From a bacterium (GTDB taxonomy: Bacteria > Sysuimicrobiota > Sysuimicrobiia > Sysuimicrobiales > Segetimicrobiaceae): a DNA stretch of 48,924 nt. The stretch lies in assembly GCA_035308905.1 (NCBI GenBank), contig DATGFS010000037.1:1-48924 (forward strand), read 5' to 3'. The notes beneath the pieces were generated by a model, which did not search any database, was not told where the DNA came from, and worked only from the letters and a program-made list of their open reading frames with translations. Positions 29,022 through 31,683 of this stretch are shown here, one piece after another. The position numbers were made by a program, and so were the translations under genes. How positions within the stretch are numbered: position 1 is the stretch's first letter; each line of letters begins with the position of its first letter.

Positions 29022-29094
29022 GGACTACCCGTCCCGCGTCAAGGATGCAGGACTACCCGTCCCGCGCCAAAGATGCAGGACTACCCGCCGAACG
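29022..29094. repeat. Tandem 28-bp repeat between PLP dehydratase and NRAMP genes
   Basis: Copies at 29022-29049 and 29050-29077 begin GGACTACCCGTCCCGCG and differ at two positions; a partial third copy begins at 29078 and runs into the 3' end of the NRAMP gene. The core GCAGGACTACC also occurs in the hairpin near 43955. Confidence 0.8.
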
Positions 29095-30355
29095 GGAAGA
29101 TCTGCGTCACGACCAGCGCCAGCGTCAGGACGATCATCAGGACCGTGGTCACCCACGCGATGACGTTGAAGGGTACCGAGTTGGTGTAGGCGCCCATCAG
29201 GCGCTTCTGGTTGACGAGCAGCAGCATGAACACGAGGATGAACGGCAGCAGGATGCCGTTCGCGACCTGCGACAGGAACAGGATCTGCAGCAGCGGGGCG
29301 TTGGGGAGCAGGACGATGATGCACGCCCCGACGATGAGCGCGATGTAGAGGCCGTAGAACACCGGGGCCTGGCGGATCGTCCGGTCGACGCCCGCCTCGA
29401 ACCCGAGCGCCTCGCACACGTAGTGCGACGTCGCGAGCGGCAGCACCGACGCCGAGAACAGCGACGCGTTGATGAGCCCGAGCGCGAACAGTAACGTCGC
29501 GTACCGGCCGGCGAGCGGGGCAAGCGCAAGCGCCGCGTCCTTGACCGTCTCGACGTGGATGTGGTGCGCGAAGATCGTCGCGCCGCAGGCCACGATGATG
29601 AACCAGGCGACGATATCGGTCATCAACGAGCCGATGAACACGTCCGTCCGCGTGTACCCGTAGTCCTTGACCGTGATGCCCTTCTCAACGACGGTCGACT
29701 GCAGGTAGAACTGCATCCACGGCGCGATCGTGGTGCCGATCACGCCGACGAACATCAGGAGATACGCGGCCTGGAAGCTGAACGTGGGCACGACCGACGC
29801 GCGGAGCACGACGCCCCAGTCCGGCTTCGCGAGCACGCCCGAGATCACATAGGCGACGTAGAAGGCGCTCGCGCCGAGGAAGATGCGCTCCACCGACCGG
29901 TAGGTGCCGCGGACCACGAGCAGCCACACCGTGAGCGCGCCGATCGGCACGAACACGTACTTGGAGACGCCGAAGATCTCCCCGCCGGCGGCGAGCCCAG
30001 AGAACTCGGCGAGCGTATTGCCGAAGTCCGCCGCGAGCAGCACCAGCATGACCCAGACCGTGGTGCGGAGGCCGAACCGCTCCCGGATCAGGTCGGCGAG
30101 GCCCTTGCCGGTCACGGCGCCGAGGCGCGAGGCCATCTCCTGGATGACGTACAGCGCGATCGTCACCGGGATCATCGTCCACAAGAGCGCGTAGCCGAAA
30201 TTGGCGCCGGCGAGCGAGTAGGTGGTAATGCCGCCGGCGTCGTTGTCGACGTTCTGGGTGATGATGCCGGGGCCCATGATGGCGAAGAACATCGCCAGCC
30301 GGGTCATCGCCGCGGCCCGGCCGGCCCGCCTCAGGATCGGAAGGGTGAATTTCAC
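29081..30355 (-). CDS. NRAMP (SLC11)-family metal transporter of divergent, NRMT-like type
   Basis: A 424-residue inner-membrane transporter with about 11 helices. Helix 1 has GPGIITQNVDNDAGGITTY, so the canonical DPGN is D39-A-G-G42: the aspartate is kept and the asparagine is glycine. Helix 6 has GTTIAPWMQFYLQS where Mn/Fe transporters have the MPH signature, so the metal-binding methionine is Ala211. These changes match what I recall of NRAMP-related magnesium transporters, which bind a hydrated, larger ion. The GTG start at 30355 shares GTGA with a gene for a soluble MgtE-like sensor, which supports a Mg2+ role. Mn2+ or other divalent transport is the alternative. Confidence 0.88.
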   Translation of the reverse strand: MKFTLPILRRAGRAAAMTRLAMFFAIMGPGIITQNVDNDAGGITTYSLAGANFGYALLWTMIPVTIALYVIQEMASRLGAVTGKGLADLIRERFGLRTTVWVMLVLLAADFGNTLAEFSGLAAGGEIFGVSKYVFVPIGALTVWLLVVRGTYRSVERIFLGASAFYVAYVISGVLAKPDWGVVLRASVVPTFSFQAAYLLMFVGVIGTTIAPWMQFYLQSTVVEKGITVKDYGYTRTDVFIGSLMTDIVAWFIIVACGATIFAHHIHVETVKDAALALAPLAGRYATLLFALGLINASLFSASVLPLATSHYVCEALGFEAGVDRTIRQAPVFYGLYIALIVGACIIVLLPNAPLLQILFLSQVANGILLPFILVFMLLLVNQKRLMGAYTNSVPFNVIAWVTTVLMIVLTLALVVTQIFPFGG

Positions 30356-31683
30356 GCGGGCGGCTCGGGCCTGTCCGCCCCGCGCGGCGTGCCCGCGGAC
30401 TCGCGCAACGCCTTGCGCCGAAGCAGGTCGACGCCGCCGCCGAGCTTCCGCGGGCCGTACGTCTCGACGAGAATGTCGATCAGGTGGTCCACCGTGACGA
30501 TGCCGATGAGCCGTCCGCCCGGCTCGACGACCGGAACGGCCAGCAGGTCGTACTTGACCAGCGCGCCGGCGACGTCCTCGACGCTGGCGTCCGGCGGTAC
30601 GTAGAAGACGTCGGTGCGCATGACCTGCGAGATCGGCGTTTCGGGCGGCGACACGATGAGCGACCTGATCGACAGCACGCCGACGAGCCGTTCCTGCACG
30701 TCGACGACGTAGAGGTAATAGATGGTCTCGTCGTCGGGCTTGGTCTCGCGGAGCCGCGCAAGCACCTGCTCGACCGTCATCGTCTCCGGCAGGGCGATGA
30801 ACTCCGTCGTCATCTTGCCGGCGGCGGTCTCCGGCGGGTATTCCAGCAGGCGGCTGACCTCTTCGGCCTTTTCGTCCTCCATAAGCGAGATCAGCTCGTC
30901 CGCCCGGTGCTCCGGCAGCTCCCCGAGTACGTCCGCGGCTTCTTCCGGCGCCATCTCCTCGAGCACGTCCGCGGCCCGTTCGCTGGGCAGTTCCTGAATC
31001 ACGGCGGTCTGGATGTCGGGCTCGGCCTCCTCGAGCACGTCGGCGGCGGTCTCGTCGCCCAGCGCGGTGATCATCTCGACCCGCTCGTCGCGGTCGAGCT
31101 CCTCGAGCAGATCCGCCAGGTCGGCCGGGTGAATGTCCTTCAATTTCTCGCGCGAGATGCTGAGCTTGAGGGGGGTCATCGTGCCGCCGAGGACGGCCAC
31201 GAGGTTCCAGGGGATCATGCCCTGCGGCAGCGGGCGGCCGAGCCGCTCGAGGGCGCCGGCGACAAGCGGCTCGAGCCCCAGCCGCCGCAGGAGCGAGCGC
31301 GTGCCCACGTCCGCGCCGACGACGCGGAGCTCCGGGCCGACCTGCCGCAGCTCGATGTCGTTGACGCGCACGACCTTCAGGTCGTCGGTGTCCACGACCT
31401 GAGAGTCGAAGATATTGTCGCGCAGCAGCACTTCGTCGGGCTGAAGCGGCCGGGGCGTGAGGTGCCGCCGCTCGACGCGGAGCCGGACGCCCCCCGTGGA
31501 AAATTCGGCGACGGCTTCCCACGGGATGATCGCCACGCGGCTGCGATCCCCCGACAGCAGAATGCCGGTAATCTTCGGGAATTTCTCGGTGCCGTGGTAA
31601 ATGACGAGGTCGGCGACGCGGTCGAACGCGTCGCCGGACGCGTCGTACACCGGCTTGCCGATGATCTGACTCAGGTACAGCAT
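30352..31683 (-). CDS. Channel-less MgtE-like sensor: PRC-barrel, MgtE N domain and CBS pair
   Basis: A 443-residue cytoplasmic protein with no membrane helix. It begins with a PRC-barrel (SQIIGKPVYDASGDAFDRVA), a second similar region near residues 90-150, then the helical MgtE-N repeats (DIHPADLADLLEELDRDERV, SERAADVLEEMAPEEAADVL) and two CBS domains (about 300-415, with LVGVLSIRSLIVS and GRLIGIVTVDHLIDILVE). In MgtE channels these N and CBS domains sense cytosolic Mg2+ and close the pore; here the pore is missing. The acidic surface of the MgtE-N region is kept. Start at 31683 (MLYLSQ). Overlap with the NRAMP gene implies joint function. Confidence 0.9.
   Translation of the reverse strand: MLYLSQIIGKPVYDASGDAFDRVADLVIYHGTEKFPKITGILLSGDRSRVAIIPWEAVAEFSTGGVRLRVERRHLTPRPLQPDEVLLRDNIFDSQVVDTDDLKVVRVNDIELRQVGPELRVVGADVGTRSLLRRLGLEPLVAGALERLGRPLPQGMIPWNLVAVLGGTMTPLKLSISREKLKDIHPADLADLLEELDRDERVEMITALGDETAADVLEEAEPDIQTAVIQELPSERAADVLEEMAPEEAADVLGELPEHRADELISLMEDEKAEEVSRLLEYPPETAAGKMTTEFIALPETMTVEQVLARLRETKPDDETIYYLYVVDVQERLVGVLSIRSLIVSPPETPISQVMRTDVFYVPPDASVEDVAGALVKYDLLAVPVVEPGGRLIGIVTVDHLIDILVETYGPRKLGGGVDLLRRKALRESAGTPRGADRPEPPA

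Follow-up and report, generated by a model that had tools for sequence, protein, structure and literature searches.

A soluble MgtE-type sensor encoded beside an NRMT-clade transporter: a candidate two-part magnesium uptake system

The two overlapping genes analyzed here encode a soluble protein built from the regulatory domains of the MgtE channel and a transporter of the NRMT clade, and the pairing of these two families is conserved across many genomes. We lean toward the view that the two genes constitute one Mg2+ uptake system, in which the soluble protein, hereafter the sensor, would act in trans as a detached cytosolic Mg2+ gate on the NRMT. The window is the whole stretch of bacterial DNA that was analyzed, 48,924 nucleotides long. 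The features of the two genes are as follows:

29081 to 30355, minus strand: NRMT-clade (SLC11) transporter gene, 424 amino acids, GTG start (Pfam Nramp, E = 6e-95)
29717 to 29737, minus strand: TM6 metal-site motif GTTIAPW, amino acids 207 to 213
30230 to 30244, minus strand: TM1 metal-site motif NDAGG, amino acids 38 to 42, identical in EleNRMT
30352 to 30355, minus strand: 4-nucleotide overlap of the sensor stop codon TGA and the transporter start codon GTG (junction sequence)
30352 to 31683, minus strand: sensor gene, 443 amino acids, PRC + MgtE_N + CBS + CBS, soluble (open reading frame, Pfam)
30466 to 30816, minus strand: CBS pair, about amino acids 290 to 406 (Pfam, two CBS, E = 5e-21)
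30829 to 31134, minus strand: MgtE_N superhelical domain, amino acids 184 to 285 (Pfam, E = 2e-28)
31471 to 31680, minus strand: PRC-barrel, amino acids 2 to 71 (Pfam PF05239, E = 1.2e-7)

The sensor open reading frame begins with ATG at 31683 and ends with TGA at 30352; the junction sequence is GCGTGAAA, and thus GTGA is common to the sensor stop and the transporter start. A preliminary description of this DNA had reported that overlap, and had assigned PRC-barrel, MgtE_N and paired CBS domains to the protein; all of these were borne out. Its further statement that the protein has no membrane helices agreed with the Pfam result, in which the MgtE channel domain (PF01769) was absent from the sensor, and with hydropathy counts of 0 or 1 hydrophobic stretch in homologous sensors versus 7 to 12 in full-length transporters. 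A search of the entire window genome for the PF01769 transmembrane domain found none. The sensor matched the cytosolic domain of TtMgtE (2yvy) with a phmmer E value of 2e-45. An AlphaFold2 model of a homologue had the MgtE cytosolic fold in its sensor half, and Foldseek superimposed that half on Mg2+-bound MgtE (2yvy) with a TM score of 0.84. Judged from homology and modeling, the sensor and the MgtE gate are one family. The sensor has in common with the MgtE channel (PDB 2zy9, 2yvy) the MgtE_N domain, the CBS pair and most of the Mg2+-sensor acids; it differs in being a separate polypeptide that lacks the channel domain and the plug helix, and in possessing an extra PRC-barrel and connector.

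The partner had been described simply as an NRAMP transporter; the Pfam Nramp match upheld the superfamily, but the protein belongs by sequence to the NRMT (NrmT) clade rather than to generic NRAMPs. It scored 390.6 bits against EleNRMT (7qia) versus 107.4 bits against Deinococcus radiodurans MntH. At the metal site, the classical NRAMP Asn ligand of TM1 is replaced by Gly and the Met of TM6 by Ala, both as in EleNRMT, so that the two proteins have a D-A-G-G / T-x-x-A site in common. The H+-coupling TM6b histidines of classical NRAMPs, replaced in the window transporter by Trp (the first) and Gln, are also missing in EleNRMT. Another 54 aligned transporters that are paired with a sensor had a metal site of the NRMT type, in some cases with small substitutions. 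In a maximum-likelihood tree the window transporter and all sensor-paired transporters grouped with EleNRMT, and the canonical NRAMPs split off with support of 100/100; the placement of one long-branched sequence, L092, inside the EleNRMT-containing group is unsafe. When a homologue of the window transporter was modeled with AlphaFold2, the model superimposed on EleNRMT (7qia) with a TM score of 0.91. The bit scores, metal-site residues and tree led us to reject an ordinary Mn/Fe NRAMP identity.

Further NRAMP genes (L091 to L094) were observed in the window genome, on contigs C10, C57, C24 and C3; they comprise one MntH type, one whose metal site (DPAG / TLTPY) is unusual, and two contig-end fragments.

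EleNRMT of Eggerthella lenta is an uncoupled Mg2+ transporter that also carries Mn2+ (PMC8806188), and Mg2+ transport has been demonstrated for some members of the NRMT clade (PMC4072509, PMC8806188). By homology, the window NRMT is probably an uncoupled facilitator, and Mg2+ is its likely substrate. The EleNRMT structure was solved without a sensor, and the available part of that report does not mention one (PMC8806188).

A search for related loci from the single sensor returned two loci only; we therefore used profile searches of whole genomes, covering 386 genomes with the sensor profile. Full-length sensors (n = 64) aligned over the whole length of the profile with scores of at least 298 bits, and the next group, true MgtE proteins, scored 259 bits or less and aligned over MgtE_N and CBS only. 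An NRMT gene adjoined 58 of the 64 full-length sensors, in 30 families. The conserved co-occurrence that the preliminary description had proposed to look for is thus present, and chance adjacency was rejected on this count. Fifty-three pairs had the sensor followed by the NRMT on one strand (one with a 1.4-kb gap and one frameshifted), and in many pairs the genes overlapped. In four pairs the transporter came first, and one pair lay on opposite strands. The NRMTs of the four reversed pairs (L085, L120, L124 and L126) formed one clade on a long branch; their sensors were observed to be among the most divergent. No third conserved gene of the unit was found except antisense artefacts, and any additional neighbor of the pair recurred in three families at most.

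Six sensors had no adjacent NRMT. One, in genome G011, was at a contig end. Four, in G051, G085, G265 and G333, were unlinked, their NRMT or NRMT-like gene lying on a different contig; the match in G085 was weaker. The sixth, in G160, was fused: a 618-residue protein in which a sensor-type module precedes an MgtE channel domain. Its N-terminal part aligned with the sensor profile, with Pfam PRC below threshold, and by sequence it is a fused counterpart of the two-gene unit. For the preliminary description, a membrane-channel partner carrying the same sensor would have counted against its proposal; this single instance was found, and it fits a modular gate and is not a refutation.

Two unusual architectures were observed. 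The G160 gene (L116:4318-6174, plus strand) encodes an MgtE channel bearing the N-terminal extension of the detached sensors (profile positions 6 onward). In G308 (L123:4121-5967, minus strand) a PRC-only open reading frame lies directly upstream of a sensor in which Pfam detected no PRC; this is possibly a split or duplicated PRC part, perhaps like the split in Clostridium acetobutylicum.

We then compared sensor residues with the Mg2+-site residues of TtMgtE, which were taken from published work (PMC5882242). In the MgtE_N domain, D215, E247 and D251 of the window sensor align with TtMgtE E59, D91 and D95; in the CBS pair, D379, H400 and D403 align with D226, D247 and D250. Among 63 sensors, D95 was kept in 62, an acid at E59 in 55 and an acid at D91 in 52; D247 was kept in 47, D or N at D226 in 55, and an acid at D250 in 45. 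The plug-helix residues E258 and D259, which tie the MgtE gate to its pore, were absent, and the sensors have a basic tail instead. Because E258 and D259 are absent and the window sensor carries H at the D247 position and E at that of D91, gating cannot copy that of MgtE exactly. The sequence comparison indicates that the Mg2+ switch survives largely intact in its N-CBS part and has lost the portion that contacts the MgtE pore, as would be expected of a sensor serving a different membrane partner.

The preliminary description had also stated that the arrangement matched no characterized system. That statement did not hold, for Shin et al. (2014) reported that most nrmT genes adjoin a gene for a homologue of the MgtE N-terminal cytoplasmic domain, and proposed cytoplasmic feedback or a chaperone function as its role (PMC4072509). 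The pairing and the feedback idea are therefore already known, the latter published in 2014 as speculation. The operons described there (C. acetobutylicum Ca_c0685, A. capsulatum ACP2976/2977) place the MgtE cytosolic-domain homologue beside an NRMT as in the window and carry the same cytoplasmic feedback hypothesis, the likeness to the window being by description. In the part of that source available, no mention was found of the PRC-barrel, an anticorrelation with MgtE, a predicted docking or a fused MgtE channel; the pairing count in 386 genomes, the avoidance of MgtE, the MgtE fusion and the docking prediction are new here. Our literature search combining NRAMP, MgtE and PRC-barrel gave no match, and later NRMT literature, in the parts available, adds the EleNRMT structure and contains no test of the sensor.

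Shin et al. (PMC4072509) also describe complementation experiments. The NRMT of A. capsulatum, which adjoins an MgtE-like gene and has no M-box, fully rescued a Mn2+-transport mutant and rescued a Mg2+ mutant only with added Mg2+; it acted as a Mn2+ transporter, and rescue was no better when the MgtE-like gene was co-expressed. The C. acetobutylicum NRMTs were functional without the MgtE-like fragment.

These results bear on the first alternative, in which the pair takes up Mn2+, or both Mn2+ and Mg2+, and the sensor either responds to Mn2+ or passes the metal on, with no gating of Mg2+. We consider it unlikely. The A. capsulatum rescue pattern (PMC4072509) and the transport of Mn2+ by EleNRMT (PMC8806188) are in its favor, as is the M-box result. 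No M-box was found in the window at the gathering threshold or around the genes at E < 5, which distinguishes it from the nrmT operons of PMC4072509, although the M-box is a feature of a subset and does not strictly define NRMTs. None was found in 14 related loci, and no other known RNA was found in front of the window operon. Against this alternative, one pair (L106, in G350) does lie under an M-box (133.6 bits), which overlaps the start of a long sensor open reading frame upstream of the PRC domain, and several of the MgtE Mg2+-site acids are kept in the sensor.

The distribution of MgtE also argues against a Mn2+ role. MgtE was present in 2 of 40 genomes with a sensor versus 77 of 107 without one (p = 6e-14, a figure inflated by shared ancestry); with one genome per family, the counts were 1 of 10 versus 66 of 94 (p = 3e-4). 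All 12 genomes of the window family had neither MgtE nor CorA, yet the window genome already has a canonical MntH-type NRAMP (L091, with DPGN and Met). CorA was present in many other sensor genomes, and thus the avoidance concerns MgtE. An MgtA-type P-type ATPase was present in the window genome, which is 97% complete.

Two other observations concern Mg2+ genes. Relatives of the same order that lack the pair (f4 and some of f6, among them L047, L048, L049 and L052) often have two MgtE genes in tandem. CNNM/CorC-like proteins, recognized by eye from sequence, lie near the pair in three families (L070:1035-2318, L067:1129-2409 and L076:10-837); the CNNM/CorC-like family has been linked to Mg2+ efflux.

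In a second alternative, docking on the NRMT does take place, but the docked protein senses nucleotides (energy) or serves as a partner for assembly and stability, and is not a gate operated by Mg2+. Adenine nucleotides are common ligands of CBS pairs, and the CBS pair of MgtE binds ATP (PMC5529423). The ATP-site residues Y170 (Tyr in 56 of 63 sensors) and R187 (Arg or Lys in 60 of 63) are largely kept, and the missing plug helix would also be consistent with such a role. However, most sensors lack three other residues of the MgtE ATP site (D188, N203 and F227), whereas D95 and most of the other Mg2+-site acids are conserved; we judge this alternative to be improbable, and slightly more so than a role in Mn2+ uptake.

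Both this alternative and the Mg2+ gate have the sensor docking on the transporter. Some relatives have their sensor and transporter genes in the same frame, and there translation through the stop codon yields a single chain. Two such pairs, L066 and L118, were modeled with AlphaFold2, the halves being linked by roughly 45 low-confidence (disordered) residues. The mean pLDDT values were 87.4 and 88.8, and the pTM values were 0.69 and 0.81, respectively; by a back-of-envelope estimate, independently placed halves would be expected to give a pTM of about 0.5. The models suggest that sensor and NRMT have a defined docked arrangement, more strongly in L118, the pTM being an indirect sign. The predicted interface that the preliminary description had called for is, to this extent, apparent in two homologous pairs. 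A third alternative, in which the proteins never touch and simply share expression within metal homeostasis, might be suggested by the separate contigs in four genomes and the sensor-independent complementation (PMC4072509). We consider it very improbable, because the pairing spans 30 families and the genes often overlap, G160 has this module fused to an MgtE channel, the pTM values are 0.69 and 0.81, and no additional gene accompanied the pair in more than three families.

The Mg2+ gate would work as follows. The NRMT would be an uncoupled facilitator through which Mg2+, and probably Mn2+ too, enters down the membrane potential. The sensor would correspond to MgtE's regulatory half, separated from the channel and extended by a PRC-barrel and a connector, and would dock on the cytosolic face of the NRMT. 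At high cytosolic Mg2+, acids situated between MgtE_N and the CBS pair would bind the ion, and the sensor would compact as in MgtE and lock or slow NRMT transport; at low Mg2+ it would relax, and uptake would resume. The binding of Mg2+ by the window sensor, the docking face and the direction of gating are what we infer here. Against such a gate are the absence of the plug helix, the lack of an M-box in the window, the Mn2+-type behavior of one tested pair, its unimproved rescue on co-expression of the MgtE-like gene and the function of the C. acetobutylicum NRMTs without the fragment (PMC4072509), and the four sensors unlinked to their NRMT. The preliminary description had proposed a detached Mg2+ gate on an unrelated transporter; with the conserved pairing and apparent docking, the gate remains the best-supported explanation, but its partner belongs to a clade that includes Mg2+ transporters.

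We further suggest, more tentatively, that one Mg2+-sensing module has been exchanged between two unrelated membrane folds, covalently attached on the MgtE channel and as a separate protein closing the LeuT-fold NRMT, and that the sensor-NRMT pair replaces MgtE as the regulated route of Mg2+ entry where MgtE is absent. NRMTs appear to be uncoupled and would go on loading Mg2+ unless closed. Should the lock prove to be the detached MgtE sensor, a question open since 2014 would be answered, and the avoidance of MgtE, the fused counterpart and the predicted docking make the gate idea directly testable. The system, if this is true, would plainly illustrate how a single cytosolic sensor can control two transport folds that are unrelated.
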